In this document: positions 1-33,164 of the stretch, in pieces
Layout of the letters: each line of letters starts with the position of its first letter
Numbering within the stretch: position 1 is the first letter of the stretch
DNA from: Planctomycetota bacterium
GTDB lineage: Bacteria; Planctomycetota; B129-G9; JAJDCN01
Assembly: GCA_029260815.1 (NCBI GenBank)
Contig: JAJDCN010000181.1
Span: forward strand, 1-33,164
Length of the DNA: 33,164 nucleotides
Direction of reading: 5' to 3'
Notes under the pieces: generated by a model
Told to the model about the DNA's origin: nothing
What the model saw: the letters and a program-made list of their open reading frames with translations, nothing else
Database searches by the model: none
Made by a program: the position numbers and the translations under genes

Positions 1-6
1 ATTTAG

Positions 7-1165: not shown

Positions 1166-1174
1166 GGGTGTGTG

Positions 1175-2053: not shown

Positions 2054-2068
2054 TGGAGGGTGTTTTGG

Positions 2069-2344: not shown

Positions 2345-2367
2345 TTATTTTTTTTCGGAGGTGTGTG

Positions 2368-2553
2368 ATGGGTGAGCAGGCGAGTCGGTGGGGTCAGCCG
2401 GAGACTTATATTGCGGCGGTGACGGCGTTGGCGGGAGCGATTCCGGCGAGCGGGGTCTTTCCGGCGGATAGCGTGTGGAACAAGGTTGCGGGGTTGGTGG
2501 TGGTGGTGTTCGCGGCGCTGGGGTATCGGGCGACTCAGGCGGCGAAGCGGTGA
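2368..2553 (+). CDS. Small two-helix membrane protein, holin-like
   Basis: A 61-residue protein with two hydrophobic segments, TYIAAVTALAGAIPASGVF and KVAGLVVVVFAALGY, joined by a short polar turn and ending in a basic tail (RATQAAKR). This is the size and layout of a class II holin, but no specific family was recognised. The ATG at 2368 has CGGAGG 6 bases upstream. A longer in-frame start at 2341 would add an atypical run of phenylalanines and lies within the previous gene's end. The stop TGA overlaps the GTG of the next gene (GTGA), which implies translational coupling. G/T codon bias continues. Confidence 0.6.
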   Translation: MGEQASRWGQPETYIAAVTALAGAIPASGVFPADSVWNKVAGLVVVVFAALGYRATQAAKR

Positions 2554-2879: not shown

Positions 2880-3073
2880 CGATGTCAGCGGCGTCGGCGG
2901 CTTTGGTGGCGAGGTTGGTGGAGCAGTTCATTCGGAGGCTGCCGGCGATTATCCGGGCGTTCGGGCCGGGGCCGATCGACTTGGATGAGATCTATCCGAA
3001 GACCCGCGAGGAGCTGGAGGCGGAGGTCGAGGCTCAGCGGGAGCGGGATTCTGGCGGTAATCCCAATACATAA
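2876..3073 (+). CDS. Hypothetical small phage protein
   Basis: A 65-residue protein not recognised. The N-terminal two thirds are an amphipathic helix (ASAALVARLVEQFIRRLPAIIRAF). It is followed by a GPGPIDLDEIYPKT turn and a charged C-terminal helix (REELEAEVEAQRERD). There is no signal peptide. Its ATG overlaps the previous stop (ATGA), so it is translated with the lipoprotein. It is the last gene of the G/T-biased module, and its second half already has a more ordinary codon mixture. It might be a membrane-associated lysis accessory protein, but this is a guess from position. Confidence 0.5.
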   Translation: MTMSAASAALVARLVEQFIRRLPAIIRAFGPGPIDLDEIYPKTREELEAEVEAQRERDSGGNPNT

Positions 3074-3077
3074 GGGG

Positions 3078-3143
3078 GGAGGGGTGGTCTCTATCTCTAG
3101 GCGGGCCTCCCCTCCAGACCGTAGCCCCAGGGAGCATTTTTTT
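3078..3143 (+). terminator. Possible transcription terminator after the phage module
   Basis: A ggaggggtgg arm (3078-3087) can pair at 9 of 10 positions with cctcccctcc (3106-3115) around an 18-base loop. A run of seven T lies at 3137-3143. The T-run is 21 bases from the stem, so this is not a textbook intrinsic terminator. Its position right after the last gene of the operon supports the role weakly. The remainder of the gap up to 3216 shows nothing else. Confidence 0.3.
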
Positions 3144-3216
3144 CTCAAGGGTTAGAATTTTTTCGGGGAGCCTGGCCCAGGGGCAATCTGTCCCACCTAT
3201 GTGCTATGCTTTGGAT

Positions 3217-3600
3217 ATGAAAGTCGCACGTATTACTCCCGTTCTGTTCGCCGTGCTGCTGATCGTCTCAGGCTGTGCGTGCAGGGAGATCCACGTCGTG
3301 GAGTACGAGGTGCTCCGCGTCGTGGACGGCGACACCTTTGAAATCTTCTATGATGGAGACCCGACCAGGGTACGTATCCTAGGCATTGATACGCCCGAAA
3401 TCCGGAAAAAACAGGTTGGAGCCCTGGAGGCCAAGGCTGAATTGGAGCGGCTAGTACAGGGAAAGATTGTCGTTCTCGACTTCGCGGCAAGGCGAAAGCG
3501 CGACAATTTCGGCCGGCTCCTAGCCAACGTCACCGTAGAAGGTTTGGATATTGGTAAGCACCTTCTCAATACAAGCCACGCCAAGCCATATCGAAGGTAA
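3217..3600 (+). CDS. Staphylococcal-nuclease-like lipoprotein (thermonuclease family)
   Basis: A 127-residue protein. A lipoprotein signal (ITPVLFAVLLIVSGC, Cys20) leads into a single SNase domain. The family's active-site set is present: Asp39 in VVDGDT, Arg53, Asp58 and Glu61 in RVRILGIDTPE, and Arg100 in DNFGRLLANV, matching Asp21, Arg35, Asp40, Glu43 and Arg87 of staphylococcal nuclease. It should be a calcium-dependent nuclease anchored outside the cytoplasm. Base composition is ordinary, unlike the phage genes just upstream, so it looks like a separately acquired cargo gene. A lipid-anchored nuclease on a prophage could degrade incoming DNA or scavenge nucleic acid (inference). The ATG at 3217 is preferred over the in-frame one at 3199 because it gives a normal signal peptide. 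It converges on the integrase with a 10-bp gap. Confidence 0.85.
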   Translation: MKVARITPVLFAVLLIVSGCACREIHVVEYEVLRVVDGDTFEIFYDGDPTRVRILGIDTPEIRKKQVGALEAKAELERLVQGKIVVLDFAARRKRDNFGRLLANVTVEGLDIGKHLLNTSHAKPYRR

Positions 3601-3610
3601 GGCCGTTGAA

Positions 3611-4810
3611 TTATCCAACCTGGGCGATTACTTCCATTGCTCTGGAGATATTTGTTTGCGCGTAAACCTGAGTAACGTCGGCATGTTTATGGCCGAGGAT
3701 CAGTTGCGCGGCCTCAAGCCCATGTTCTTCTCGTATAAAAGTACCGGCGCTGTGGCGAAGGCGATGCGGTGACCATCTCGGAATATCCGCTTGTTCACAC
3801 GCCCTGACGATTGCTCTTCGATAGCTGTCTCTATCGTAATGGTCTCGGGGCCGGCGTTTGGGGTTACACTTCACGTTCGTCCCCGGCTTGTTCCCGCAGG
3901 ATAAAGGAGTATTCCGGTCGGCGTGCATGTGGGCCCGCCTCTGCGTCTCAGCTTCGGCTGGACTAAACAAGTTCGCCGTTAGATTGTCTTTTAGTAGTGG
4001 CCGCAAGATGGCTTGCGCCTTGGGGCCAAGAAAAACGGCTCTGCTGTGCCCGTGGTGCTGTGTTTTATGACGTGCTGGGCTATAAATCCATATTTCCACC
4101 TGCTTATCTTTGACCGCGTTCACCACCTTGATGTCGCAAGCACGCATGGTAACCACCTCTCCCGGTCTCATGCCAGACAACCTCTGCACCTGGATCATGG
4201 CCCAAACCTGCGGCGATACGAACGGCTTCACCGCCTCAACGTGCGAGTCTGGCACAGGTTCTACAGGATCGGTCTCGCGTGCTGCTGTACGTCCAATGGC
4301 AAGCCCAGAAACGGCCTGGAGGCCCTGATAAACCGATGGCGGAATAAGTTCCTCCGCGACTGCCCACTTAAACATGAGCTTGATTCGGTTTACGTGCTTG
4401 TTGATGTACTTCCGAGACCCACCAGCCTCAATCATGCTTTGTCTGACGGCCTTGAGCGCGCGAGGACCAAAGTCTAGCGCCCGAATTCCGCCATATAGAG
4501 ATTTCACAGGACGTAGAGCCAGCCTCATGTTCCCTACCTCTTCCGTAGGCGTTCCGTCTGGCTTTCGGTAGTAGTCGTTCACGTGTTTCCAGAATCTAGC
4601 GCAAAGTTCCAAAACAGTAATTTCGTGTGGATCTGCTGGCGGTTGGTCGTGGCAGGTCGCCCATTCAGCCACGAACCGCTGGTAGCGCTCACGGCTATCT
4701 GCGGACCCGTAGTAGCCCAGATAGAACCTACGACCTTCTTTCTCGACGAAAGCGAGGTCACCGGTAGTGCGTTTCTGTTTTCGGTATTTTGGTGGAGCGT
4801 TTCGCGGCAT
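3611..4810 (-). CDS. int: Tyrosine recombinase / integrase of the element
   Basis: A 399-residue site-specific recombinase. The N-terminal part (about 1-60) is a basic arm-binding-like region (RKQKRTTGDLAFVEKEGRRF...). It is followed by a core-binding domain (about 65-165, containing the KYINKHVNRIKLMFKWAV helix) and the catalytic domain. The catalytic signature is complete: Arg in LSGMRPGEV (about 216), His349 and Arg352 in HRLRHSAGT, His376 in GHKH, and Tyr383 in TQVYAQ. The start has AGGAGG 7 bases upstream. It lies next to the tRNA-fMet and should catalyse integration and excision there. A perfect palindrome sits 20 bases before the start codon. The N-terminal region resembles integrases I associate with planctomycetes, a recollection that needs a search. 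Confidence 0.93.
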   Translation of the reverse strand: MPRNAPPKYRKQKRTTGDLAFVEKEGRRFYLGYYGSADSRERYQRFVAEWATCHDQPPADPHEITVLELCARFWKHVNDYYRKPDGTPTEEVGNMRLALRPVKSLYGGIRALDFGPRALKAVRQSMIEAGGSRKYINKHVNRIKLMFKWAVAEELIPPSVYQGLQAVSGLAIGRTAARETDPVEPVPDSHVEAVKPFVSPQVWAMIQVQRLSGMRPGEVVTMRACDIKVVNAVKDKQVEIWIYSPARHKTQHHGHSRAVFLGPKAQAILRPLLKDNLTANLFSPAEAETQRRAHMHADRNTPLSCGNKPGTNVKCNPKRRPRDHYDRDSYRRAIVRACEQADIPRWSPHRLRHSAGTFIREEHGLEAAQLILGHKHADVTQVYAQTNISRAMEVIAQVG

Positions 4811-4925: not shown

Positions 4926-5002
<77 letters not shown>

Positions 5003-12736: not shown

Positions 12737-14266
12737 ATGCTCCGGCCCGATGGGATGAGCCTCAAACAGCGCATCGGTCACGTCCTGATGCCCCGTATCT
12801 ACGCCGGGCTCGTCCCGGACGCCGGCGTGTTCCGCGACCGCCTGGCCTTCCTCGTGGAAGAATTGAGCATTCGTCTGTTTGTCCCCTACCGAGCCGGCGT
12901 GTTGGACACCTCGCAGATGTGCAACGTGATCCAGGACATGGCCACCGAACCCGTCCTGTTTGCCGCCGACGTGGAGTTCGGCCCCGGCCAAAGCTTCCTC
13001 GGCGCCACGTCTCTACCCGCGGCACGGGCCATCGCTGAGACCCGGGCCATTGAAAATGCCCGCCTCGCCGGCGAGATTACCGCCCGGGAGTGCCGAGCTA
13101 TGGGCATTCATTGCGTCTTCGGACCGGTCGTCGATGTGAACAACAACTCCGCCAACCCCATCATCGGCACCCGGAGCTATGGCGAAACCATCGAGCCGGT
13201 GGTAGCCATGGCCAACGCGTACATCGACGGCGTCCATGCCGCTGGTGGACTGGCCACCGCCAAACATTTCCCCGGCCACGGGGACACGCGCATCGACAGC
13301 CACTACGCGCTGCCCACGATTCACAAATCCGTTGAAGAACTTCACGCTCTTGAGCTCGCTCCCTTCGTCCGCGCGTTCGCGGCCGGGGTGGACTGCGTCA
13401 TGACCGCGCACATCGCCTTTCCCGCGCTGGATCCGTCCGGACTACCGGCCACCCTGTCCAGGCCGATCGTGACCGGACTGCTGCGCGAAGAACTCGGCTT
13501 CGACGGCGTGGTCCTTACCGACGCGTTGACCATGCGAGGGATCGTCGACCGGATGCCCGCCCCGGCCGCCGCCACGGAGGCTCTGATCGCCGGCTGCGAC
13601 ATCGCCCTGTTTCCAGGCGACGAGGCGGCGGCCTGCCAAGCGGTTGAGCGTGCGCTCGAAGACGGGCGCCTGACGGAGGCGCGGCTCAACGAGGCGGTCA
13701 GCCGCGTCCTACGCCTGAAAGAAAAGGCACGGTTGTTAGACGAGACAGCCGTCGATCTCTCCACGCTCCCGGGACAAGTACGCAGGAACGATGCGCAGAT
13801 TCAGGCAATCGCCGCCGCTTCGATCCGCGTGCAGGTACGCGCAGACATCCTACCGATCTCAGCCGACGAGCGGACCGTGGCGGTCTGGATGCCACCGGGA
13901 ACACCCATGCCCGATAGCATCCCGGCGCTGCAAGAGCTCATGGGGCTCGGCTGGCGCGGAAGATTTTGCTTTGCCTGGGAGGAAGCGGGCGATCAATGGC
14001 CAGAGGCTGTTCGCGCTGCGGTGCAAGACGCGGACACAGTCCTCCTGTTCGCGGCGCCCGACACGCAGCGGCACGAGGCCAAGGATCGTTTTGTGGTGGA
14101 TTTAAACCGAGTGATCGGAGAACTCGAAGGAACCGGTCGGACTGTCGTCTATGTTTCCCTGGGAGACCCTTATTGCGTTGCGTGTGCCAACCGGCTGGAT
14201 GCCTTTGGCATGGAGGCCGTCTCCCAGCGTGCAGTCGCGCAGACGCTTATGAAGCCTCCTATTTGA
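12737..14266 (+). CDS. nagZ: GH3 beta-N-acetylhexosaminidase (NagZ-like)
   Basis: A 509-residue glycoside hydrolase family 3 protein, longer than typical NagZ (about 340). The catalytic domain (about 8-335) has the NagZ signature ATAKHFPGHGDTRIDSH, with His181-Asp183 in the acid/base loop. It also has the predicted nucleophile Asp262 in VVLTDALTMRG. NagZ removes N-acetylglucosamine from peptidoglycan fragments in recycling. Residues about 340-509 form an additional C-terminal domain I cannot name. There is no signal peptide, so it should be cytoplasmic. The ATG at 12737 has GGAG 7 bases upstream; the longer frame back to 12611 overlaps the divergent PEBP gene. Its last 8 bases overlap the convergent pelG 3' end. 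Confidence 0.88.
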   Translation: MLRPDGMSLKQRIGHVLMPRIYAGLVPDAGVFRDRLAFLVEELSIRLFVPYRAGVLDTSQMCNVIQDMATEPVLFAADVEFGPGQSFLGATSLPAARAIAETRAIENARLAGEITARECRAMGIHCVFGPVVDVNNNSANPIIGTRSYGETIEPVVAMANAYIDGVHAAGGLATAKHFPGHGDTRIDSHYALPTIHKSVEELHALELAPFVRAFAAGVDCVMTAHIAFPALDPSGLPATLSRPIVTGLLREELGFDGVVLTDALTMRGIVDRMPAPAAATEALIAGCDIALFPGDEAAACQAVERALEDGRLTEARLNEAVSRVLRLKEKARLLDETAVDLSTLPGQVRRNDAQIQAIAAASIRVQVRADILPISADERTVAVWMPPGTPMPDSIPALQELMGLGWRGRFCFAWEEAGDQWPEAVRAAVQDADTVLLFAAPDTQRHEAKDRFVVDLNRVIGELEGTGRTVVYVSLGDPYCVACANRLDAFGMEAVSQRAVAQTLMKPPI

Positions 14267-15653
14267 CCGGTTGGTTCATGAAGGTGTAGAAGTTGAGCTT
14301 GCGCACCGCCTTGTCGAGCAGCAAATACCCCACCAGGACGGAGACCAGACAGGCCACCGCGTAGCCGTAGCCGTGATACGCGTAGCTCATCCGCAGGCTG
14401 ATCGCTGTGAACAGAGCGTTGGAAGCAAAGAACAGCCCCGACAACCAGAGCACTTTCGTTCGCTGATCCAGATACAGAAGCATGATGACGAGCACCAGCA
14501 GCATCGCCTGGAGCAGCGAGGCGAGCACGGCCACCCGGAAGATCGGCAGATAGGCGCTATGCATTCCGACCACGTCGGCGATCGGCTCGGCGAACACAAT
14601 CGCCAATAGCGAGATCGTGCCCTGCAGCTTCAGGATCCGAACCGCGGACAATCGCAGGTTCTCCTCCATGGCCACGCGTGCCCGGTCAATCTCCCGGAAC
14701 GGAGCCTTGGCCACGATCGTGCCGTAGTATTTTCGATAAGTGTCGTGAAACGAGGTCTCCACGCGGATGACGAACAGCGACAACGTGGGCACGATCGTGA
14801 GATAAGCCAGGAATAATGGCGTCGTATAGCTCGAGTTGGCGTAGAACAACGGCGCCACCTCGGTGCCGGTCGGACCGAACATGAAGAAGAACTTGTCGAC
14901 CCAGATCCCCAGATTGTAGAAGAACCCCACCAGCGTGAGCGTCGGAAAGACGTTGAAGTAGCGCAACAGCGTGCGGTCAAACGTCACACGGCCCTCGAAT
15001 TCGCTGAGCGTCCGCGCCACCAGCAGAGCCAGGATCAACAACTGACCCGCGGTAAATCCGGTGAGCAGGCCCTCCAACCCCCACAACTGCCACAGGCCCC
15101 AGCCGCCGCCGAAACTCAGCCCCGTGCCCAGCAGGAACGCCAGAAAGATGCTGTTATAATCCCGCGCGGCGCCCAAGAAGATCATGGCGATCCAGATGCA
15201 CGACACCGCAACGTACAGGGTCGTGGCCATCCATCGGTATTCCAAAGAAAAGCCGAACCGGATATCGCTGAACGCCTCCACGCCGAAGAGAAACCCAACA
15301 GCGATCACGAACTGGACCGCGGCGGTGGTCGCCAGAGCCGTGATGAACGCGGGCGTCAGCTTGGTCGTATCGTCCGCAAACAGAGCGTCGGACAAGTACC
15401 GGGAGACAACCATGTGCAGGAAGCCGGTTACGACCAGGGAGAAGGCGAAAACATAGATCACGGTGATCCGAAACTTCTCGACTTCCACAAAAGTCGCTTT
15501 GCTGCTGGTCAAAACGCTGAGCAGCCAGAGGCACAGGACCGTAAACAACCACGGTCCTGAAGAAATGACCGCAGAGTACAGATACCCACGCGCCAGGTTC
15601 GTGAAGGTGTCTTCCTTGACCAATGCCTTGAGTCGATAGCCGATGCCGGCCAT
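14259..15653 (-). CDS. pelG: PelG, polytopic membrane protein of Pel synthase complex
   Basis: A 464-residue multispanning inner-membrane protein with about twelve helices of the polysaccharide-flippase-like (MOP) type. The start MAGIGYRLKALVKEDTFTNL then ARGYLYSAVISSGPWLFT matches the conserved PelG N terminus. In Pseudomonas PelG works with PelD, PelE and the cytoplasmic PelF to polymerise and carry the chain across the inner membrane. It is the last gene of the pel operon, starting 2 bases after the pelF stop. The length is very close to the known protein. Its end overlaps the convergent nagZ by 8 bases. Confidence 0.93.
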   Translation of the reverse strand: MAGIGYRLKALVKEDTFTNLARGYLYSAVISSGPWLFTVLCLWLLSVLTSSKATFVEVEKFRITVIYVFAFSLVVTGFLHMVVSRYLSDALFADDTTKLTPAFITALATTAAVQFVIAVGFLFGVEAFSDIRFGFSLEYRWMATTLYVAVSCIWIAMIFLGAARDYNSIFLAFLLGTGLSFGGGWGLWQLWGLEGLLTGFTAGQLLILALLVARTLSEFEGRVTFDRTLLRYFNVFPTLTLVGFFYNLGIWVDKFFFMFGPTGTEVAPLFYANSSYTTPLFLAYLTIVPTLSLFVIRVETSFHDTYRKYYGTIVAKAPFREIDRARVAMEENLRLSAVRILKLQGTISLLAIVFAEPIADVVGMHSAYLPIFRVAVLASLLQAMLLVLVIMLLYLDQRTKVLWLSGLFFASNALFTAISLRMSYAYHGYGYAVACLVSVLVGYLLLDKAVRKLNFYTFMNQPVK

Positions 15654-15655
15654 GC

Positions 15656-17131
15656 CTACGCCTCCTGCATCTGTGGTTGATACAACTGCCGGTACTGCTC
15701 GGTCACAGTCTCCAGTCGGTAATACGCCGCCGTCCGCTTCTTGCCCGCCTCGGACATCCGGTGCCAGAGTTTTTCATCCGACAGAATCCGAAGAATTCCA
15801 TCCGCGGTATCCGCCGGGGTCGAGACGTTGGTGACTACGCCGCTGTCGCCCAGGGCGCGGTCCTCGGCGGTCCGGCCCGTGAGTAACTCTTCGCAAGCCC
15901 CCACTCGGGTGGCGACCACCGGAACGCCGGCGGTCATGGCCTCCAGGATCGACAGAGGCTGTCCTTCCGACAGGCTGGTCAGGACCACCGCGTCGAGCTT
16001 CGGATAATATTCGGTAGCGTCAATCACGCCGGTAAAAGTGAGCCGGTCTTCCAAACCCAGAACCTCCACCAACTGCCGGCACTTGGCCACATAATCGGGA
16101 TCTTCGTCCGTTCCGCCCATAATCAGGAAACAAGCTTCCGGGATGCGGTCCGATACGATCTTCGCGGCGCGAATGAAGGTCATGATGTCTTTGATCGGGA
16201 CCACGCGACCCATGAAACCGATTTGTTTCGTACGTTCCGGTTCGGAGCGCGGCTGGTCGAACCGATCGATGGGAATCCCGTTGGGGATAATCAATGTCCT
16301 GTTCGGGTCCGCCCCCGCGCCGAGCTGGTGCATCCGGTTGCCTTCGAACAAGGTGACGATCCGGTCGGCCTGCTGATAGGCGATGGCGGCAAAGACGCCA
16401 AACATACGCTCCCACCAGGTCTTGAACAGCCCCTGGTGGCGGGCAACGACCGGCTGGTGCGCCTCCGGCGTGTGGATCCAGTCCGCCTGGCTGATCTCCA
16501 AGCTCCGTTCCCGTGTATAGATCCCGTGCTCGGTCAGGAGAAACCGCTCGGCACCGTGTTGTTTCGCGATGGCACCCAACAGTCCAGCGTAGCCGGTGGC
16601 CACGGCGTGGTAGACGCGGGCAGCCGGCAGGTCCAGGTCCACCAGCTTCATCAGCGGCATGTGGGTGAAGCGCCAGGTCCAGAAAAAATCGATAAAGGAG
16701 TAGTCCGGCGCAACGTCTTGATAGATGCGGTTCACCAGATCCCAGGCTTCTTCGGAGAAGGACAAATCGTGGGTGGACAGGACCCGGTCGGGCCCGCTGA
16801 TCAAATCGATCAGGCGCCCGTAATCGGTCGGTTCGTTCCGAATGATCTTGCGATAGATCTGTTCGATCTCAGCCCAAGCCTGCGCGGTCTGTCGCCTGGA
16901 TCGGCTGCCGCGAGGCGTGGTTTCGTAATCGAAGGGAAAGACCTCTTGTACCTCGACCACGTTGTCCGGCATCTGAGAGACGTAGCGCTTACCACGGTCT
17001 TCCGACGGCGAAATGTGCAGGATGGAGAACGATAGATCCGGCAGAGCGCGGATCAAGCTATCGACCCACACCGAGACGCCGCCGCGAACGTGCAGGTAAA
17101 TGCCCTCGAGGATCAGGCAGACGTCGGTCAT
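15656..17131 (-). CDS. pelF: PelF, Pel polysaccharide glycosyltransferase (GT4)
   Basis: A 491-residue soluble GT-B glycosyltransferase. The N terminus TDVCLILEGIYLHVRGGVSVW is the PelF hallmark. The C-terminal nucleotide-sugar domain has GFMGRVVPIKDI and the GT4 E-x7-E motif, Glu389 and Glu397 in EGQPLSILEAM. PelF is the polymerising transferase, using a UDP-N-acetylhexosamine (UDP-GalNAc in Pseudomonas by current evidence). The ATG at 17131 has AGGAGGA at good spacing and overlaps the pelE stop (ATGA), so the two are coupled. A longer frame to 17155 lacks support. No UDP-sugar epimerase gene is in the window. Confidence 0.95.
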   Translation of the reverse strand: MTDVCLILEGIYLHVRGGVSVWVDSLIRALPDLSFSILHISPSEDRGKRYVSQMPDNVVEVQEVFPFDYETTPRGSRSRRQTAQAWAEIEQIYRKIIRNEPTDYGRLIDLISGPDRVLSTHDLSFSEEAWDLVNRIYQDVAPDYSFIDFFWTWRFTHMPLMKLVDLDLPAARVYHAVATGYAGLLGAIAKQHGAERFLLTEHGIYTRERSLEISQADWIHTPEAHQPVVARHQGLFKTWWERMFGVFAAIAYQQADRIVTLFEGNRMHQLGAGADPNRTLIIPNGIPIDRFDQPRSEPERTKQIGFMGRVVPIKDIMTFIRAAKIVSDRIPEACFLIMGGTDEDPDYVAKCRQLVEVLGLEDRLTFTGVIDATEYYPKLDAVVLTSLSEGQPLSILEAMTAGVPVVATRVGACEELLTGRTAEDRALGDSGVVTNVSTPADTADGILRILSDEKLWHRMSEAGKKRTAAYYRLETVTEQYRQLYQPQMQEA

Positions 17132-18129
17132 GATGCTTCCTCCTGTGGGGCCCACAGGGCGACGAGTTGGCCGAACTCAGATTCGGCGGGCGCCAGATCG
17201 GCGCGGACCGTCAACGTATCTCGAATCTCCCGGTACCGACCCAGGCCGAAGTAGGCGTGGCACAGCAGCCGGCGTAACGGCGCGTCGTCGGGTCGCTGCT
17301 CCACCGCGGGCTCCAGAACTTCGACCGCCCGGTCTTCGTTGCCCCGTTCGATCAAGATCTGCGCGTAGCCGGTCACCGCCTCCAGATATTGGCCATTGGT
17401 TTCCAAGACAGCCTCGTATTGTTCGCACGCTCGCTGCAGGTAGTGACGGCGCGTCATGTCGTCGAGCAAACCGCTTTGGCAAAGTCGCCGGTAAGACTCG
17501 GCCAACTCGATCCGTCGCGTCGCGGTGGGGTCAAGATCGGCCCGCTCCTTCGCGTGAAACACCGCGTCATTCAACCGGGCCTCGATGCGCGACAAACTCG
17601 CCGAGGCCTGTAGCCGTACCGCGTCTTCTTCGGAAGACAGGAAGCCGCGCAACGTCTGAATCGTATGCGGATCGTTGTGCAGGGACAGCCGCTCGATCGC
17701 GGCCCGCAGCGCGGGGGGGTCTGCGTCGGCAATAATGTCCACCAGCGGCTGAGTCGAGCGGTCCGCTGCCAGAATCGCCTCGCCCGTCGCTGCCTCCCCG
17801 TGGAACCGAGCTGCGTTCATTTTGACGTAATCCTTGAACTCATCGAAGACGCCCCGCTTGCCGGTCCGGTGCGTCATCCAATCCATCACCGCGGCCATGA
17901 ACATGCCCAGCAAGGGTAGCGGCAGCGCAAACAGAAACAGCAGCGTGGCCATACCGCGACGGTCCTCGCGCGGCGCCAGCGCACTCTGCCCCACCGCGAA
18001 CAGCCCGCAGGCCACCACGTGCGCCAGGACGTAGACGGGCGGTTCCACCGGAAGCGGACCAAACACCGCCGCTGCACCCAGGACGACGCAGAACTCGATC
18101 AGGATGGCAAGGATCGATAGCACGACCAT
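17128..18129 (-). CDS. pelE: PelE, membrane-anchored TPR protein
   Basis: A 333-residue protein. Two or three membrane helices lie in the first 90 residues (VVLSILAILIEFCVVLGAA, VYVLAHVVACGLFAV, LLFLFALPLPLLGMFMAAV). They are followed by a helical region and TPR-like repeats toward the C terminus (YLQRACEQYEAVLETNGQYL, AVTGYAQILIERGNEDRAVE, APLRRLLCHAYFGLGRYREI). This is the PelE layout, and in Pseudomonas PelE bridges PelD and the synthase. I placed the start at 18129, one base after the pelD stop, because AAGGAGG lies 11 bases upstream. An ATG at 18177 would add 16 residues and overlap pelD by 47 bases without a good ribosome-binding site. Confidence 0.85.
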   Translation of the reverse strand: MVVLSILAILIEFCVVLGAAAVFGPLPVEPPVYVLAHVVACGLFAVGQSALAPREDRRGMATLLFLFALPLPLLGMFMAAVMDWMTHRTGKRGVFDEFKDYVKMNAARFHGEAATGEAILAADRSTQPLVDIIADADPPALRAAIERLSLHNDPHTIQTLRGFLSSEEDAVRLQASASLSRIEARLNDAVFHAKERADLDPTATRRIELAESYRRLCQSGLLDDMTRRHYLQRACEQYEAVLETNGQYLEAVTGYAQILIERGNEDRAVEVLEPAVEQRPDDAPLRRLLCHAYFGLGRYREIRDTLTVRADLAPAESEFGQLVALWAPQEEAS

Positions 18130-18130
18130 T

Positions 18131-19546
18131 TTATGCTGAACCTCCTTCGGCTCGTAGACCGGCGGCGGTTTCCGCATGACCGACCAGGTCCGCCACGCTC
18201 GCCATGTGTTCCTCCAGGGTCGCCACGCCGATGGTCACGTCGATGTCGCCGGCCCGCAGTTGGACCTTGCCCGCAAGCTGGACCACCTCATTCTGGAGCC
18301 GCTCGGCCAGGATGGTAACGTCCTGGGTCTTCTTGGTGCGCACCAGGATCGCCAGCGTGCCTTCGGTGCGGTATTTGGTGACCAGATCGACCTTGCGCAG
18401 CGACTGGTCCAGGGACAGGCTGAGCGATTGGAGAAAGCGCACGTAGCGGTCTCGCGGAAAATCCTCGTGGATCTTGAAGTGGACGATCATCAGCGACAGT
18501 GGGATCTCATGGCGTTTGGAATCGGCAAACTCCTCCTCGATCCGCTGCTGGAAGTAGTTGTAATTGAACAATCCCAGCTCGTCGTCCCGGATGTTTTTGT
18601 CCGTCGCCTGCTGATAATACAAGGCGTTCTGAATGGCCGTGTTGCCCCAGTCGGCGATCATATCGAACAGCTTTCGGTTCGACGCATTGAAGTCGCCGAA
18701 GGTCATTTTATGAACAGCGATCACGCCGATGATTTCCAGATCCAGTCCGCGGATCGGCGCCGCCAACAGAGCATCGCCCTGAAAGCGGTCGAAGTCCGCC
18801 TCCGTGACCAGTTCCGGCACCGCCACCGCGGAACCGCGCTGGATGGCGTGGCCCATGACGGAGCCTTCCAGGCCGTATTCGGACGACGGCGCGTCCGCGT
18901 CGTTGGCGCAGTGGTAGTCCTTGCGAATCAGGCGCCCCGCCTCGCAGGTGTAGATGGAACACGCGGTCGCACCCATGTACTGGGCCAGCAGATCCAGGAT
19001 CGCGGGATGCAGTTCATCGATCTTGAGCGATTCGAGCCGCTTGGCCGACGCGTAGAGCGTAGAGACCGTCTGGACCTGGCCGACGATCCGGCGTTGCAAC
19101 TCTTCTTTCGACTGCTGCACCGCGTCCAGGTCATCGCGCAATCCGGACCCTTCGGCCTCGGCCCTCTCGGCACGCTCCTGCGCGTGACGCAGGCGATGGT
19201 CCTGTCGCGTCCGGATCTCCCCCACCACGGCACCCACGGCGATGAATGCCAACGGCTCCCAGAAATTGGTCAGGAAGTTGTCTGGCGACCGAAAGACCTC
19301 CAGATTCTTCGGATCGGATGCTTCGTACCGGCAGACGATCAGGGCCGCCGCACACAGGGCCGCCCCCCAAAACCCGGCCGCCACACCGTAGCGAACGGCG
19401 ATCAGAACCACGATCAGCCAATAGGGATGCGGCTCCAAACCGATGAAGCCGGTCGGCGCAATCGGTTCTTTGAGCGCAAATCGATTGATCGCCTCCAGGC
19501 CGACCAGTGCGACGAGCACTTCCAGGATGAATCCGTACTTCTTCAC
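18131..19546 (-). CDS. pelD: PelD, c-di-GMP receptor with GAF and degenerate GGDEF domains
   Basis: A 471-residue inner-membrane regulator. The N-terminal region holds about four helices (residues 5-115). It is followed by a short coiled coil (about 118-155), a GAF domain (about 160-310) and a GGDEF-like domain (about 325-465). The inhibitory-site motif RxxD is present as Arg384-Lys-Val-Asp387. The catalytic GGDEF position five residues further is RTEGT (393-397), so diguanylate cyclase activity should be lost while c-di-GMP binding is kept. This is exactly the pattern of Pseudomonas PelD, where c-di-GMP binding switches on polymer synthesis. Arg416 may be the second binding arginine. The start is GTG, one base after the pelC stop. 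Confidence 0.94.
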   Translation of the reverse strand: MKKYGFILEVLVALVGLEAINRFALKEPIAPTGFIGLEPHPYWLIVVLIAVRYGVAAGFWGAALCAAALIVCRYEASDPKNLEVFRSPDNFLTNFWEPLAFIAVGAVVGEIRTRQDHRLRHAQERAERAEAEGSGLRDDLDAVQQSKEELQRRIVGQVQTVSTLYASAKRLESLKIDELHPAILDLLAQYMGATACSIYTCEAGRLIRKDYHCANDADAPSSEYGLEGSVMGHAIQRGSAVAVPELVTEADFDRFQGDALLAAPIRGLDLEIIGVIAVHKMTFGDFNASNRKLFDMIADWGNTAIQNALYYQQATDKNIRDDELGLFNYNYFQQRIEEEFADSKRHEIPLSLMIVHFKIHEDFPRDRYVRFLQSLSLSLDQSLRKVDLVTKYRTEGTLAILVRTKKTQDVTILAERLQNEVVQLAGKVQLRAGDIDVTIGVATLEEHMASVADLVGHAETAAGLRAEGGSA

Positions 19547-19547
19547 G

Positions 19548-20114
19548 TTAGTCCCTTTCGGTTTCCACGGGCGCCTTGGCGTTCAAGAAGGTGTTGGCCA
19601 TCTTCTCGCAAACCCGCTGGGTATTCGCGTTGAGCGAAACCCCGCGCGTGAGCGTGTGGCTCGCCGCCCAGACGATCTCGCCGGTCTTCACGTCGACCAT
19701 GCGCAGGTTGACCCCGACGGTAGGCGATTCGGTAAGCCCCTGCTTGTATCGGTACTCCGAGACGGAGCCGAAGATCACGGCGCTCACGCCGAGCTTTTGC
19801 CCGATCTCTCGGGCCATGTGCTCGGAGCTGACACCGCTGGTGAGGGCCTGCAGGTCGCCCGCGCGGGTCTTCTGCTCCTCCTTGGACATCACCACGAACG
19901 AGCCGGCTTCGTACAGCACCGAACTCATTACGTCGGCCACGATTTGACCGGCGTTCGGGTAATTGGTCAGGTTGGTAAACGGCATCACCGCGACGCTTGG
20001 GCCACTCGCGGCGTATCCGGGTTGACGGATGTAATTCTCCTGCGTGTAACTGGCGCACGCCGAAGCCGACGCCACCACGCAGAGGATCGCGAACCATCCC
20101 AGGATTTTGGACAT
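19548..20114 (-). CDS. pelC: PelC-like outer-membrane lipoprotein
   Basis: A 188-residue lipoprotein. The signal peptide MSKILGWFAILCVVASASAC ends at lipidated Cys20. The mature domain has a CsgG/PelC-like pattern: VAVMPFTNLTNYPNAGQIVADVMSS, then FVVMSKEEQ, LGVSAVIFGSVSEY, VNLRMVDVKTGEIVWAA and a final helix. In Pseudomonas PelC forms a dodecameric ring at the periplasmic mouth of PelB and guides the cationic polymer. The start has AGGAGG upstream, and it follows pelB by 10 bases. Assignment rests on fold texture plus its place between pelB and pelD. Confidence 0.9.
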   Translation of the reverse strand: MSKILGWFAILCVVASASACASYTQENYIRQPGYAASGPSVAVMPFTNLTNYPNAGQIVADVMSSVLYEAGSFVVMSKEEQKTRAGDLQALTSGVSSEHMAREIGQKLGVSAVIFGSVSEYRYKQGLTESPTVGVNLRMVDVKTGEIVWAASHTLTRGVSLNANTQRVCEKMANTFLNAKAPVETERD

Positions 20115-20124
20115 AGAACTCCTC

Positions 20125-23100
20125 CTAAAATTTCACTTCCAAACCCACTGTCACTTCATATTCTTCACCGCCGCCGGTCCGGCTGGTTTCTGTCAGGTAC
20201 CGCGCGCGCAGGACACCCTTGACGTCCTCAGTGAAGCGATGCTCGAACTCGCCCTCGGCCCCGTAGACCGGGACCACACGAACCGGGTCGTATCCGCCGA
20301 ACAGGCTGAACCCATGGAAGCACTGGGGTGAGTGCTGGTGTTCCCAACGAAGGTGCCCCGTGTGCGACCGCTCCGAGATCAGCACCGGCACCAGCGTGTC
20401 CAGGTCGCCTCGAGATAGCTTGAAGCGCGTGCGCTGAAAGCGGTAGGCCGTGGATAAGTAATGCCCGTCCCGGTCCAACCAGATGTATTCGGCCTGCCCG
20501 TACCATTGTCGTTGATACCCAAAGTTGCCGGACCCGTTGATGACGTTTTCCGAGCCACGCACGTCGTAGTCCGCGTGGGAGAACCCGACGCCCAACCGCC
20601 AGCGGTCGGACACGCGACTGGTCACGTCGACCGCCGTGCGATCCTCCACGCCGCCGAAGTTCAAGAACTCCACCGGCGAGGTTGCCAGGCGCCCGCCGGA
20701 ATAGGACACCTCCACCGGCGTCTCCGGCAGAGGCGTGAAGATCCCGCCAGCCAGATAGGAATTCTGGTTTCGGGAGCCATCCGCTTCAGAGCCGAATCCC
20801 ACGTAGCCGCGGAGCTGCTGGAGGAAGTCATGATCGAGTCGGACAAACTTTCCGAAGATCGTATCATTGATCTTTCGGTTGAGCGGCCGTGCGTTTTGCT
20901 TGTGCCGTGTAACCTGGGTCGTTGCGGTGAACCGCGTTGCCTCGTTCAGCCAGTGGCGGAAGGTGGTGTCCTGCCGGAATCGTTCTTCGGTTCGCGGGCC
21001 ATTGAGATAGGAGAAGGACGTGGAGAGCGACGTGGCATATTTGTCACGAATGGCGCGGATGTCGCTTATGGTGTCCACGCCGCTGGCCAATGCCTGTTGC
21101 AGTAACGGCAGCGCTTTGGGCCCAAGGCCGATCTCCATGTAAGCGCGGGCCAGATCGACCTTGAGGGCCGGATCGTTCGGATGCTGAGCCAGCAGTTCGG
21201 TAAAACGAACCGCCGCTTGAGCAAAACGACCGGTCTCCAGGTCAATCCGGCCCACAAGCCGCTGCCCCCTCCCGCTGTTCGGAAAGCGCTCGGTCAATAC
21301 CGCACCGAGGGTTCGAGCTCGCTCGTATTCTTCGGCCAGGACCAATGTTTCGAGATAATCTTCCAGGACGCCGCGGTCGTCCGGATATTCGCGCACCAGC
21401 GTTTCGTGCTGGCCAATCGCCTCCAGCAAATTTCCACGCCGCATCTGGATACGGGCGATGGATCCGCGAGCCAACAGGTTCATGCGGGTTTGCGCGATGC
21501 GGTCGAGCGCGCGCTGGTGCTGGTCGTAGCCCAACGCCGGTCGCTCGGTATCGTAGTACAACTCGCCCAGAAGGAAGTGGACTTCGGAGTCTTTGCCGCC
21601 GCGAGCGATGAATTTTTTGTACAGCGCGGTCGCCCGAACAAGATCGTTGTTCCAGGCGGCGATGGTGGCCATCTGTTTGGTAGCCTCCAGATTGTCCGGC
21701 TCCAGGTCCAGAACCTGCTGGAAAAAGCGCCGCGCGTTTCCCCGGTCCTCGATTCGCATGTACTGCCCGCCGATGGCGTTAAGCAGTTGTGGGTTGTCCG
21801 GGTCCAACGAAAGAAGGCTTTGATGAATCTGCAGCGCTTGGAGTCTACGGTTGTTCCGCTCGTAGACGCTGGCCAGCATCAAGTTGACTTTTACCTTGTC
21901 GGGATCCGTTTGCACCGTCTCTAGCAGTTGCAGATAGATCTGAACCGCCTCGTTAAACTGTCGGTTGTCCGTGTAGGCCTCGGCCAAGTCCAACTGGTAG
22001 TCGGTCTTGTCCGGAAAGATCTTGGCAATGTCGGCAAGGACCGCGATCTGCCCGGCCCGGTCGCCCGCGCGGGCGTAGGCGTCGGCCAAGTCCTGGCGAT
22101 AGCCCAGGCGGCGCGGCGTGAACTTGACGGCGCGCGCCAGATGCCCGACGGCGTCGGTGTGGCGGCCCAGGCGCGTGTACATCTCAGCCAGGCGCGCGTG
22201 GCGGAAGGAGTCGTTGGGCTCGAGCGTGACGATGTGGGCGTAGGTCTCCGCCGCGGCGGATAGATTGCCGGTCCAGTCGTACAGGTTGCTCAATCGTTCG
22301 AGGATATCCATGTTATCTGGGTTGTCTTCGAGCAGAGCATGGGCATGGGCGATCGCCCGGTCCGGGCGCCGCAGGGTCGTATAGATATCGACCAGGGTAC
22401 GGCGGGTTCCGGTGTCGGCGGGATCTTTTACCAGGATGGCTTCGTGGGATTCAGCAGCTTCGTCAAGCTTCTTGCTCTTTTCGTATAGCGCGGCCAACTT
22501 GCGCAGCGCGTCGGTCTCTTCGGGCTTTTCGCGGATCAGCGCCAAGAGCGCCTCACGGCTTTCACCGAAGCGCTGGGTATCGCTGTACAAACGGGCCAGG
22601 AGCTTCAAGACCTCCGGGTCCGCAGCACCCGCTTCGGTCACCTGATGCAGCAGGGCAACCGCGTCTTCAGTCCGCCCCGCCTCCACGTAGGCGGTGGCCA
22701 ACGCGACACGCAGCGCATGATTCCGAGGCTCGGCGGCCAATTGCTGCTCGTAGATCGCCGCGAGCTTGTCGTATTGGAAGGTGTCCTTGTACGCCTGAAT
22801 CAGGTCGTCGGTATATTTCGGCACGTCCGGAAAGTTCGCCGCCAAATACTCGCGATGGACCAGGGCCTCGATAGGTTGGGATTGACCGGTATACAAAGTG
22901 ATGACCAACTCGCGAATTGCGCGGTTCTCAGGCCGGACCGCCAGGTATTCCTCCAGATACTGGATCGCTTCGGACGCCTGGGAGGTGGCGGCATAGGCCC
23001 GGCCCAAGCCTTCCAGGATCTCCGGGAGCTCTTGCCCCTTGAATCGATTAAGCATTCGCATGTACACGCGAATGGCTCCTTCGATGTCTTCACTCCACTG

Positions 23101-23766
23101 GTGGCGTTGCACCAGCGTGGTCCAGTAAGCGTAGTTCTCCGGCTTCAGTTCGATAAGCTTTTCATAGGCGGCGATCGCTTGGGGAAGTTTCTTGGACCAA
23201 TCGGCATAGGTCGCCAGCTTCTCGTAGGCGGCGATCCACTGCTCGGTCGTCGTCTCCGCGGGAAGCAGCGGGATCAAGCGCGTCCAGGTATCGGTGGCCT
23301 TGCCCATTTGATCGTTCCATTCGTACAGTTCGGTCATCTTCCGCAGATGCGCGATGTCTTGGGGCGCGAGAGAGACGATCTTCTCGTAGACGCCCATCGC
23401 AAGTTGTTTGTTTCGGTCGGACGGATCCTGAGGGTTGTCAGGATTGGTCCACAGGTAGGCGCTTGCCAGAGTGGACAGGGCCTCGGGGTTGTCCGGATGG
23501 ACCTGGACCAGACGCTCGAGCAATTCGGCCGCCTTGGCTGGTCGCTTCTTCCACAAGTACAGATCGGCCAGCTTCTGCAAGATGTCCGCACTGTCCGCAT
23601 CCGAGCGCCCCTCCTCCAGAGCGCGCTCGTAGGCCTCGATCGCGCGATCGAAGTCACCATCTTTGAGGAAATGATGACCGCGCTGGTGATGGCCGGGCAG
23701 GATAAAGTATCCCACCACGCAGATCGCGAGGACAAATATGAAAATCCCAAACCACTTACGGGCCAT
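20125..23766 (-). CDS. pelB: PelB, TPR scaffold and outer-membrane porin
   Basis: A 1213-residue protein, close to the 1193 of Pseudomonas PelB. An N-terminal membrane helix (KWFGIFIFVLAICVVGYFIL) anchors it in the inner membrane. About 25 TPR-like helical pairs fill residues 30-900, with repeats such as DADSADILQKLADLYLWKKR and NPEALSTLASAYLW. The last 295 or so residues are a beta-barrel with alternating strands and a C-terminal aromatic (EEYEVTVGLEVKF). The TPR region spans the periplasm and binds PelA, while the barrel exports the polymer across the outer membrane. It starts 5 bases after the deacetylase gene's stop. It is the largest gene in the window. Confidence 0.95.
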   Translation of the reverse strand: MARKWFGIFIFVLAICVVGYFILPGHHQRGHHFLKDGDFDRAIEAYERALEEGRSDADSADILQKLADLYLWKKRPAKAAELLERLVQVHPDNPEALSTLASAYLWTNPDNPQDPSDRNKQLAMGVYEKIVSLAPQDIAHLRKMTELYEWNDQMGKATDTWTRLIPLLPAETTTEQWIAAYEKLATYADWSKKLPQAIAAYEKLIELKPENYAYWTTLVQRHQWSEDIEGAIRVYMRMLNRFKGQELPEILEGLGRAYAATSQASEAIQYLEEYLAVRPENRAIRELVITLYTGQSQPIEALVHREYLAANFPDVPKYTDDLIQAYKDTFQYDKLAAIYEQQLAAEPRNHALRVALATAYVEAGRTEDAVALLHQVTEAGAADPEVLKLLARLYSDTQRFGESREALLALIREKPEETDALRKLAALYEKSKKLDEAAESHEAILVKDPADTGTRRTLVDIYTTLRRPDRAIAHAHALLEDNPDNMDILERLSNLYDWTGNLSAAAETYAHIVTLEPNDSFRHARLAEMYTRLGRHTDAVGHLARAVKFTPRRLGYRQDLADAYARAGDRAGQIAVLADIAKIFPDKTDYQLDLAEAYTDNRQFNEAVQIYLQLLETVQTDPDKVKVNLMLASVYERNNRRLQALQIHQSLLSLDPDNPQLLNAIGGQYMRIEDRGNARRFFQQVLDLEPDNLEATKQMATIAAWNNDLVRATALYKKFIARGGKDSEVHFLLGELYYDTERPALGYDQHQRALDRIAQTRMNLLARGSIARIQMRRGNLLEAIGQHETLVREYPDDRGVLEDYLETLVLAEEYERARTLGAVLTERFPNSGRGQRLVGRIDLETGRFAQAAVRFTELLAQHPNDPALKVDLARAYMEIGLGPKALPLLQQALASGVDTISDIRAIRDKYATSLSTSFSYLNGPRTEERFRQDTTFRHWLNEATRFTATTQVTRHKQNARPLNRKINDTIFGKFVRLDHDFLQQLRGYVGFGSEADGSRNQNSYLAGGIFTPLPETPVEVSYSGGRLATSPVEFLNFGGVEDRTAVDVTSRVSDRWRLGVGFSHADYDVRGSENVINGSGNFGYQRQWYGQAEYIWLDRDGHYLSTAYRFQRTRFKLSRGDLDTLVPVLISERSHTGHLRWEHQHSPQCFHGFSLFGGYDPVRVVPVYGAEGEFEHRFTEDVKGVLRARYLTETSRTGGGEEYEVTVGLEVKF

Positions 23767-23771
23767 TCCGG

Positions 23772-25862
23772 CTACCTTTTGACTTCCTTTTCTTTTATGG
23801 AACGGATCGTGATCCCCACCGCCGGACCGGCCGGTAGCGGGATCGTCAACGTCCCTGCGCTTGAAGAAGAGATAGCCGATTTTGTGATTTTGTCGCCGTT
23901 GCGAACTTCGATCGTGTACGTACGGTTCTTCTTGAGGTTCGCCAATTGGATTTGTGAGGGCCGATAGGTCGACGCCTGCAACGTCAAGACGTCGCCCTTG
24001 CGAACCAAGCTGTGCACGAAGCCATTCGCTCCCGCGACGTAGGGTAGCGTCGGAGCGGCCTCGGCCAGCGCGATCGTGTGTCGTTGGGCGGCGTCCAGGT
24101 GGACGTACAGGGAACCTTTCTGGTGCGAATAGCCAACGACGCCGGTCGATTTTTCCAGATCCAGATGCGCGGTGGTGTCATCGAAGCGGGCCGTGCGACA
24201 GGCCCCGTTGTCGCGCACCTCCCAGGCCCCGCCGGGCAGCTTGGCGATACGCGAGCGGAGGAATCCGGCGGCGGTCTTGAGATAATCGCTGGTGTAGACC
24301 GGCGCGATGTTTTGGGCCAGGACCCAGCCGTAGACTTCGTGCAGAGCCGTCAGGGCCGCCTGCTTCTCGCCGCTGTAGAAGTGGTAATAAACATTGATCG
24401 GTCGCAGGCGTCGCGGCGAGCCTGTGTTCTTGAACGTAAAGATCACGTTCTTGAAACCGAAGAACGGACCGGTCCACTCCCCGGTGTACAGGTTCTCGTT
24501 GGTATTGGTGGCGTAGAACTGCACCGGTTTGCCTGGCCGGGTCAGGGGCGCCACGTGGGCGACCGAGGGAAAGTCCGCGTCGAAGCGGGAGTCGCCGCCG
24601 TTGATGTTGAGCAGTCCCAGCCCGTCCACCACGGCGATGGCCTCGGGTGTCGGGTTGCAGTGACCGCTCCACTGGTAGACTGCGGCCTTCTTGCCCGCGG
24701 GGAGCAGGTGTTCGTTGATGTAGCCTACTGATCCGGCGATCTCTTTTTCCAGCTTATAGGTGTCCGCATAGCCGGGAATCCGAGTCAGGCCAGGCTTGCG
24801 TTGCGTCCAGTCGTAGGGATGGCTGAACGTATGGCTGGCCGCCTCCACGTTGGACCGGGCCAGGATCTTGCGCGCGATCGACACGGTGCGCGCGCTGCCC
24901 AGGGCCTTTGGGTGAACCTCGCCGGTGATGACCGACACGGTGAACGGCAGGTCGTACCGCGCGAGGATCTGCTCGTCGATCAGTTCCGGGCTCAGTTTCT
25001 TCGTGTCGATCTCCGACACGTTGAGGAAGCCGTCGCCGTCGATGTGCGAATACATCAGGCGGGCGCCGTTGAGCGTGGTCACGTCCATGCGCGGCTCGCC
25101 GGCCAGGCCGAAGGCCGCCTCGAAGAAGGCGAACGGGTCGATCCGCCATTGCCGCACGAAGGTCTTGGGGTCTTGGTACAACACATAGCCGTCCAACGCG
25201 AATCCGCCTGTCGGCGTGACAACCACCGCGTGGCTGGCGGCGTTTTTTCGATCGGTGCGCGTTAGTGTCAGGTATACCTTGTTCTTCCGGTCGGTCGAAA
25301 CGATCTGTCGATAGGTTTTGACCTCGTGTTGGAGCGTGCGTTCGAACTCCACCATCGCCGCGTCCTTCGACTGCACCGCCAACACGAACGGATTGTCCGT
25401 CCAGTTCCCACCGTCGCGCAAGCCCAGCGCGGCCAAGGCGTCCGCCACAAGCTCCGGCTTCGTGGCCGAGCCATCGGCCTCCTCCCACGCGCCCAGCCCG
25501 CCCAGGACCACGGCCTTCTTGCCCGCCTGAATTTGGCGAGCGAACCAGCGGCAGTAATCGGCCGCGTGTTTCATCCGCGCGTCCTGGAACCATGTGAGGA
25601 ACCCGCGATAGGCACGCATCTGTTCGTCAGTGGGCAGCCCGGACTCCACGTCGTGGTAGTCCACGATCAAGCCCAAATGATTCAACGGGGTCTCGGCGGC
25701 CTGGTGGATGACCGTTCGATCGACGCTCGGCGATTCACTCGCGGCGTAGAGAGCCAGCACCCGGCGGCCCAGCGGCGTGGGCGCAGGCCCATCCGCCCGG
25801 CTGACCGAACCGGTCAGCAGCAACAACAGGACCAGCAGGAGCGTCCGCCCACCGTTACTCAT
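23772..25862 (-). CDS. pelA: PelA deacetylase protein (middle domain plus polysaccharide deacetylase)
   Basis: A 696-residue secreted protein. The signal peptide spans about residues 6-23 (TLLLVLLLLLTGSVSRA). A Rossmann-like domain (about 30-230) corresponds to the middle region of Pseudomonas PelA. The deacetylase domain follows, with metal-site motifs YSHIDGDGF (Asp275, Asp277) and ASHTFSHPYDW (His344, His348). A C-terminal beta-rich domain extends from about 510. It should remove acetyl groups from the nascent polymer in the periplasm. The glycoside hydrolase half of PelA is not in this protein but in the gene just upstream, which overlaps it by 8 bases. The ATG at 25862 has GGGAGG 7 bases upstream, a strong site that shows real independent initiation. 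Confidence 0.93.
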   Translation of the reverse strand: MSNGGRTLLLVLLLLLTGSVSRADGPAPTPLGRRVLALYAASESPSVDRTVIHQAAETPLNHLGLIVDYHDVESGLPTDEQMRAYRGFLTWFQDARMKHAADYCRWFARQIQAGKKAVVLGGLGAWEEADGSATKPELVADALAALGLRDGGNWTDNPFVLAVQSKDAAMVEFERTLQHEVKTYRQIVSTDRKNKVYLTLTRTDRKNAASHAVVVTPTGGFALDGYVLYQDPKTFVRQWRIDPFAFFEAAFGLAGEPRMDVTTLNGARLMYSHIDGDGFLNVSEIDTKKLSPELIDEQILARYDLPFTVSVITGEVHPKALGSARTVSIARKILARSNVEAASHTFSHPYDWTQRKPGLTRIPGYADTYKLEKEIAGSVGYINEHLLPAGKKAAVYQWSGHCNPTPEAIAVVDGLGLLNINGGDSRFDADFPSVAHVAPLTRPGKPVQFYATNTNENLYTGEWTGPFFGFKNVIFTFKNTGSPRRLRPINVYYHFYSGEKQAALTALHEVYGWVLAQNIAPVYTSDYLKTAAGFLRSRIAKLPGGAWEVRDNGACRTARFDDTTAHLDLEKSTGVVGYSHQKGSLYVHLDAAQRHTIALAEAAPTLPYVAGANGFVHSLVRKGDVLTLQASTYRPSQIQLANLKKNRTYTIEVRNGDKITKSAISSSSAGTLTIPLPAGPAVGITIRSIKEKEVKR

Positions 25863-26751
25863 CCGTGGTCCTCCCAAACTGACCCGAAACCCGGTCTAAC
25901 TCGACGGTTGTTACATACGGCACCAGGTTGTTCTCCTGCGCGACCCGTCGCGTCCTTGCGATCGCCGCGGTGTCGCCCGGCTTCGCGTAGTCTACCAGGA
26001 AGACGGGGAATTCTTGAAGAGCCCGTGCCCGCCGCAAAGCCCCTAATTTCTCGCGTGTTAAATCGGCAGGTACGGGCTCATATGTTTTCGTTTCGAAGTT
26101 GTACCCATGGGTCAGGTCCTCCACCATCAGCCCGTCGATGTGTGGAGCCATTTCCTCCAGGAGGGCCAGGCCGTTGTTGGGCACTATGTAAGCCTTCGGG
26201 TAGCGCGTCTTGATGGCGCGGACCAGCTCGATCATCGCAGCACGCGCGCCGGCGTAGTGAACCGGGTCGGACTCTTCCAATTCCGGCGCGGTGTCCAGGG
26301 TATCCAGCAGCAGGCCGTCGAACCCTTTGGCCAGGATCGGCGGGATTATCTCGTCGAGCAACAGGGCTCGCCATTGCGGGGCGCGAACGTCAACCAGGAA
26401 GTTCTCTTTCCAGTTCGGGTTTTCCCGGACGATCCAGTCGGCGCCCTGAATTCGCGGCCAGTAGGCGCGATAGGACTCCGCCTCGCCCACGCTCAGGTAG
26501 GCCAGTGTAACGACGTCATGGGTTTTCAGATCGGAAATCTTCGGAAATGCGTCCGGGTCGACCACGGCCAGGTCGAAGTTGGCCAGCCGCGCGAAGTGCG
26601 CCGGGTCGTCCCCCGTATAGAGCAGCGCCCAGGACCCAACCGCTCTCAAGCCTGCCGAATCGCGGGCGCACGCCGGCGCAAACAACACCGCCCCCAATGC
26701 GGCAATCGCAAAAGCTCGCTGAAAGCCTTTGATGAGAACCCCCTTCTCCAT
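25855..26751 (-). CDS. pelA: PelA-type glycoside hydrolase (endo-alpha-1,4-polygalactosaminidase-like)
   Basis: A 298-residue exported protein with a TIM-barrel of the GH114/GH166 type. The signal region is 9-30, ending at ACARDS; Cys28 makes lipidation possible, but the lipobox is poor. Likely active-site acids are Glu90 in YLSVGEAESY, Asp150 in GFDGLLLDTLDT and Glu211 in GLMVEDL. In Pseudomonas this domain is the N-terminal half of PelA and cuts partly deacetylated GalNAc polymer. Here it is a free-standing first gene of the pel operon. The ATG at 26751 is preferred over the GTG at 26772, which lacks a signal-like start. A weaker alternative is an unrelated GH114-type enzyme, but the operon context argues for the Pel role. 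Confidence 0.9.
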   Translation of the reverse strand: MEKGVLIKGFQRAFAIAALGAVLFAPACARDSAGLRAVGSWALLYTGDDPAHFARLANFDLAVVDPDAFPKISDLKTHDVVTLAYLSVGEAESYRAYWPRIQGADWIVRENPNWKENFLVDVRAPQWRALLLDEIIPPILAKGFDGLLLDTLDTAPELEESDPVHYAGARAAMIELVRAIKTRYPKAYIVPNNGLALLEEMAPHIDGLMVEDLTHGYNFETKTYEPVPADLTREKLGALRRARALQEFPVFLVDYAKPGDTAAIARTRRVAQENNLVPYVTTVELDRVSGQFGRTTDE

Positions 26752-26918
26752 CCGGCCCTTGTACCACCACACGTCGCTTGCGTTCAGCCCTCACGATCGC
26801 GTCGAGCGCAACGGGGGTGATGGCGAATAACCCTCTCGAATGTCCTGGATATTAACCTATTATCATTATCGGAGTTAAATATCAGGCTCTTTAGAGCTTC
26901 AAGGTGTGGCGGCGGAGA
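26752..26918 (-). promoter_or_regulatory. Leader region of the pel operon (promoter not resolved)
   Basis: The 167-base gap between fabF and the first pel gene is AT-rich at 26840-26895 on an otherwise GC-rich strand, the usual sign of a promoter. On the complement, TTAACT (26873-26878) and GATAAT-like boxes are present, but no pair has both good matches and good spacing. A short hairpin (gctct-aa-agagc) near 26888 follows the fabF stop without a T-run. Whether pel has its own promoter or is read through from fabF cannot be settled by eye. Confidence 0.35.
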
Positions 26919-32769: not shown

Positions 32770-33164
32770 CTATGAGCGCCGACGCCGTCGGCGCCCCCAG
32801 ACCAATCCGCCCAACCCGACCACCACCAGCCCCATCGTCCCCGGCTCGGGGACGATGCCACTATTGCCGTAAATCAGGTATGTCTCGCCGGAGAGGTTGT
32901 TGCCGTTTGGGTCTGCCCAGCTTGCCCCGATGAGCAGGTCGTCATATCCATCGGCGTTGATGTCCCCCGCGTTGGAGACAGAGATGCCAGACCGATCCGT
33001 GGAGTCGATGCCGTTGAAGGCAACATCCGCATTGGCCAAGTCGACCATACCGGAAAGGGCCAAGGCTCCGCTCCTCCCATAGATCAGGTAGGTTTTTCCG
33101 GCATTGGCGTTTCCATTCGGGTCGGCCCGACTCGACCCGATGAGCAGGTCGTCAATGCCGTCGC
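32770..33164 (-). CDS. FG-GAP repeat protein with PEP-CTERM anchor, 3' part
   Basis: This is the C-terminal 130 or so residues of a gene that runs off the right edge; the frame is open to the end. Two FG-GAP (integrin-alpha-type) units are visible, with calcium-loop motifs DGIDDLLIGSS and DINADGYDDLLIGAS, each followed by ADPNG and a TYLIYG strand. The end is a PEP-CTERM signal: VPEPGTMGLVVVGLGGL, a membrane helix and a run of arginines. Such proteins are exported and processed by an exosortase, usually in bacteria making exopolysaccharide. The start lies outside the window. The stop codon is preceded by an 8-bp palindrome inside the arginine codons. Confidence 0.9.
   Translation of the reverse strand, partial: DGIDDLLIGSSRADPNGNANAGKTYLIYGRSGALALSGMVDLANADVAFNGIDSTDRSGISVSNAGDINADGYDDLLIGASWADPNGNNLSGETYLIYGNSGIVPEPGTMGLVVVGLGGLVWGRRRRRRS

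Follow-up and report, generated by a model that had tools for sequence, protein, structure and literature searches.

The window, a stretch of 33,164 nucleotides that is contig 92 of a metagenome-assembled genome (3.53 Mb, 352 contigs, 89.4% complete), carries a complete and probably functional planctomycete pel operon in which pelA is two genes. We give a probability of about 0.9 to this reading, under which the product would be a partially deacetylated GalNAc-rich exopolysaccharide. Pel itself is known as a sticky polysaccharide of biofilms. Eight close-packed open reading frames occupy positions 14259-26772 of the minus strand, in the order pelAH, pelADA, pelB, pelC, pelD, pelE, pelF, pelG. 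A sequence-only reading had proposed a full pel set in canonical A-G order, and all seven functions are indeed present; they take eight genes because pelA is two.

25855..26751, minus strand: pelAH, 305 aa; ATG at 26751, alternative open GTG start at 26772
23772..25862, minus strand: pelADA, 701 aa; ATG at 25862, reading frame open from 25877
20125..23766, minus strand: pelB; hydrophobic segment at the N terminus, TPR scaffold, and a 16-strand outer-membrane barrel at the C terminus
19548..20114, minus strand: pelC; outer-membrane lipoprotein, lipobox near residue 20
18131..19546, minus strand: pelD; membrane segment, GAF and degenerate GGDEF, predicted c-di-GMP receptor
17128..18177, minus strand: pelE; membrane helices and HEAT/TPR repeats
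15656..17155, minus strand: pelF; GT4 glycosyltransferase, likely ATG at 17131
14259..15653, minus strand: pelG; multi-span inner-membrane Pel transporter

Operon layout and gene products

Adjacent pel genes overlap or are separated by 10 bases or less, as had been read from the sequence; the stop of pelE, for example, overlaps the likely ATG of pelF by 4 bases. The operon end then given, 26751, is an in-frame ATG of pelAH, but the GTG at 26772 is also open. The genes plsX-fabH-fabD-fabG-acpP-fabF, identified by reading the translations of their open reading frames, lie upstream on the same strand, 146 bases away. At the other side, a GH3 glycosidase gene converges on pelG and overlaps its end by 8 bases. 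In the region upstream of pelAH no promoter was recognised; both terminator-like sites that were listed fall within pelAH itself.

PelF and PelG match curated models. PelF reaches 474 bits (6.5e-142) against NCBIfam PelF (NF038011), whose cut-off is 100, and the E-x7-E motif previously noticed corresponds to E397/E405. PelG matches Pfam PelG (PF16933) over the whole model (1.1e-128, 430 bits, cut-off 29), in agreement with the multispan protein that had been described. The libraries used hold no curated Pel profiles for PelB, PelC, PelD, PelE and the deacetylase half of PelA, and these proteins were therefore identified by structure matches and by profiles made in this analysis. The comparison with Pel profiles proposed by the sequence-only reading gave curated matches for PelF and PelG, whereas PelC, PelD and PelE were reached through structures or iterated profiles. 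Starting from the window proteins, iterated profiles score 164-373 bits with PelC, PelD and PelE of Pseudomonas (308 bits for PelE). PelD has Pfam GAF and GGDEF domains, the latter degenerate (YRTEG), and its RKVD aligns in the iterated profile with RGLD of Pseudomonas jinjuensis PelD, consistent with the claimed I-site being a conserved RxxD. The TPR attributed to PelE is reflected in TPR_19 and HEAT_2 matches. Several pel loci from different phyla have an open reading frame of 627-677 aa between pelE and pelF that is absent from the window (L042:12033-13934, L055:8022-9992, L057:7971-10004, L063:8121-10004, L070:8052-10013, L045:6553-8496); the L042 protein matches HEAT-repeat families.

The matches of PelB in Pfam and NCBIfam are nearly all of TPR type, and the barrel was therefore examined separately. 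Its C terminus aligns with the PelB barrel of beta- and gammaproteobacteria (hhalign, 96%), and an AlphaFold2 model of the region has 16 strands (pLDDT 84), the number found in the P. aeruginosa PelB barrel (PMC12141448). The best match of this model in a PDB fold search is the PelB of the PelBC complex (9h80, E 4.2e-13), and 4y25, a bacterial polysaccharide outer-membrane secretin, ranks below it. The proposed combination of TPR and barrel is thus upheld at the level of families, profile and fold. PelC, which had been called a lipoprotein, matches the solved PelC structures 9h80 (9.4e-13) and 5t11 (2.4e-12).

Host genome and contig

In a tree of 55 RpoB sequences the host and the genomes labelled with the same phylum form one clade (SH-aLRT 100), which includes the one named Planctomycetota genome of the set. 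This places the host in Planctomycetota, outside Proteobacteria, and the earlier guess of a non-proteobacterial diderm is supported. The planctomycete marker PSD1 (PF07587) had no match in the host genome, and none in the control genomes either. PelG is carried by 28 of the 392 sampled genomes of the phylum (~7%), and planctomycete pel appears at several separate places in a tree of PelF and PelG from 104 loci. The locus adds Planctomycetota to the groups with pel operons. Yet, spread beyond Proteobacteria is not new by itself, given that PelA homologues have been published in 16 phyla (PMC12022489) and that other genomes of the phylum carry PelG. The suggestion that this locus extends PelB/PelC export far from Pseudomonas therefore stands as regards the host, but Pel at such distances was already on record.

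Two further features lie at the ends of the contig. Positions 1-4810 contain phage-like open reading frames, have a strong GC skew and encode a phage integrase (Pfam PF00589). A tRNA-Met gene lies beside them at 4926-5002, and the phage-like stretch probably belongs to an integrated element; Pfam gave no match for the reading frames at 7-402 and 1172-2053. Positions 32770-33063 encode the C-terminal part of a protein that bears a PEP-CTERM-like sorting signal, VPEPGTMGLVVVGLGGLVWGRRRRRRS.

Two genes for PelA, in the window and elsewhere

The window does not encode the full-length bifunctional PelA of Gram-negative descriptions; it has two genes, with products of 305 and 701 aa. The sequence-only reading had listed the PelA enzymes, both of which are present, but had not singled out their separation. 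The product of pelAH is the GH166/GH114-type endo-alpha-1,4-N-acetylgalactosaminidase half (Pfam GH114, 1e-22). It matches the PelA hydrolase structures 5tcb (2.2e-15) and 5tsy, and in the alignment to these it keeps the E218 equivalent and the D160-region aspartate. An alanine faces the glutamate of the window protein in 5tsy, which thus appears to be the E218A mutant. PelADA, the CE21 deacetylase half, aligns with residues 283-822 of PelA of Pseudomonas thermotolerans (9cgy, E 2.1e-80). It retains the motifs HIDGDG, SHTFSHP, NEN and YYHFYSG, and equivalents of H526, D528, D530, H600, H604, E723 and H761 are all present. Hence, the catalytic and metal-binding residues described for PelA (PMC12022489) are conserved across both halves. 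The stop of pelAH overlaps the ATG of pelADA by 8 bases (junction ATGAGTAA). PelADA starts with an ordinary-looking signal peptide of its own, MSNGGRTLLLVLLLLLTGSVSRADG, and the start region of PelAH holds a possible lipoprotein signal, MEKGVLIKGFQRAFAIAALGAVLFAPAC, whose lipobox, APAC, is atypical and weak.

Two-gene pelA is common outside the Pseudomonas-type lineage. Among loci of the 104-locus set in which both PelA domains could be read, fused PelA is found in one clade, mainly of beta- and gammaproteobacteria, and in G026, the planctomycete neighbour of the window. This clade also has one Verrucomicrobia, one Myxococcota and one planctomycete member; L221, a planctomycete locus inside it, yet reads as split. 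Separate PelA genes occur in loci of Planctomycetota, Acidobacteriota, Alphaproteobacteria, Bdellovibrionota, Myxococcota, Nitrospirota, KSB1 and SAR324. The split or fused state requires 3 changes on the PelF and PelG tree, against 16 on average and never fewer than 11 in 300 label shuffles; the tree is unrooted and the order of the two states is thus not given by it. Two loci, L116 and L057, were left out of this count because the flank truncates the N terminus of PelADA and this affects their split calls. One locus has a different arrangement: in L125 the hydrolase domain of PelA (180-3050) scores weakly (117 bits), and downstream of pelG there is a second, stand-alone PelAH (12918-13787, 292 bits) that looks like a replacement for the fused domain.

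The two halves also differ in their export signals. In a lipobox scan, 14 of 28 stand-alone PelAH had a lipoprotein signal, against 1 of 39 fused PelA and none of 31 stand-alone PelADA. The excess in PelAH gives Fisher p values of ~5e-6 against fused PelA and ~3e-6 against PelADA, uncorrected for relatedness. The scan was custom-written with hand-set thresholds; PelC was positive in 44 of 51 cases, and PelF (0/109) and PelG (0/107) were negative. Its segment was lengthened once, the PelC control being 1/51 with the short segment, and the PelA counts were identical both ways. The frequency of the signal suggests that stand-alone PelAH may be anchored in the membrane and act independently of the deacetylase. 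A broader proposal, which we think less likely than not, is that outside the beta- and gammaproteobacterial lineage outer-membrane Pel export normally relies on PelA as two proteins: the deacetylase would be soluble and work with PelB, and the hydrolase would be lipid-anchored and trim Pel independently. The fused PelA of Pseudomonas would then be a derived special case.

Alternatives, mechanism and known systems

One might suspect that pelA is really an ordinary fused gene, broken by a frameshift error of sequencing or assembly. The two open reading frames are in different frames with their short overlap, and G026, the nearest relative in the PelF and PelG tree, has a fused PelA. But the signal peptide of PelADA is not expected in the linker of a fused protein, and in other Planctomycetota and other phyla the halves of split PelA lie far apart or on opposite strands. 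The recurrence of split PelA among relatives, with halves at differing positions, makes a frameshift hardly credible. The contig might also come from another phylum by misbinning, since the three other sampled genomes of the host's class gave no PelG match and pel is scattered within the phylum, which makes transfer or misbinning conceivable. Yet, these classmates are only 73-79% complete, and the G+C content of the contig is even (~0.6) except at its phage-like end. Moreover, the PelF and PelG phylogeny, which the sequence-only reading had put forward as a check, groups the window exclusively with three other genomes of its own phylum (4 rows, SH-aLRT 95). We thus regard misbinning as very improbable.

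The nature of the product leaves more room for doubt. PelF is only ~40-46% identical to any relative found, and divergent pel loci may not yield identical polymer composition (PMC7112194, which also reports pelA rearrangements). Hence, the operon might make a related polysaccharide, with another amino sugar or a mixed polymer, by a Pel-like mechanism. Against this, the active sites of both hydrolase and deacetylase, specific to the processing of alpha-1,4-GalNAc, are retained, and we find a different product unlikely.

The genes present, their order and homology, the conservation of catalytic and I-site residues and the modelled barrel are observed; from them we infer the polymer, the activities, the regulation and the anchoring as follows. 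In a complete planctomycete pel operon, sugar would be polymerised by PelF at the inner membrane, together with PelD, PelE and PelG. Binding of c-di-GMP to the I-site of PelD would switch synthesis on, and four other GGDEF proteins encoded in the host genome, putative synthases, could be its source. The polymer would travel along the TPR scaffold of PelB, be deacetylated by PelADA and leave through the PelB barrel within the PelC ring. PelAH would be a separate secreted hydrolase, possibly lipid-anchored. As a separate protein, it would cleave Pel without being physically tied to the deacetylase, unlike in Pseudomonas.

In Pseudomonas one protein both cleaves and deacetylates Pel, which has left the relation of cleavage to deacetylation and export unsettled. 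Operons in which they are naturally separated, with a hydrolase that often bears an anchor signal, make each step testable alone. We found no report of split PelA in outer-membrane-export pel operons in the literature searched, and nothing relevant on planctomycete pel in a search that covered the main texts of open-access papers. Full-length PelA is described in many Gram-negative phyla (PMC12022489), in a main text where a term search found neither Planctomycetes nor split PelA.

The window shares with P. aeruginosa pelABCDEFG the seven functions, their order and PelB/PelC export, as well as a PelD with degenerate GGDEF and RxxD I-site and the active-site residues of PelA. It differs by its two-gene PelA, the possible lipoprotein signal on the hydrolase half, a PelF of ~40% identity and the planctomycete host. 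Separate PelAH and PelADA are known from Gram-positives (PMC7112168), and the pelDEADAFG cluster with its separate pelAH, as in Bacillus cereus (PMC7112168, PMC13254593), resembles the window in this respect. Yet, PelB and PelC are missing from that cluster, whose PelADA carries a transmembrane anchor, whereas the window has both export proteins and a PelADA with an ordinary-looking signal peptide. In the PNAG system, PgaB processes an exported amino-sugar polymer by deacetylase and hydrolase activities (PMC5933820). In this described function it is like the window PelA, whereas PgaB is one protein acting on a beta-1,6-GlcNAc polymer and the window PelA is two.
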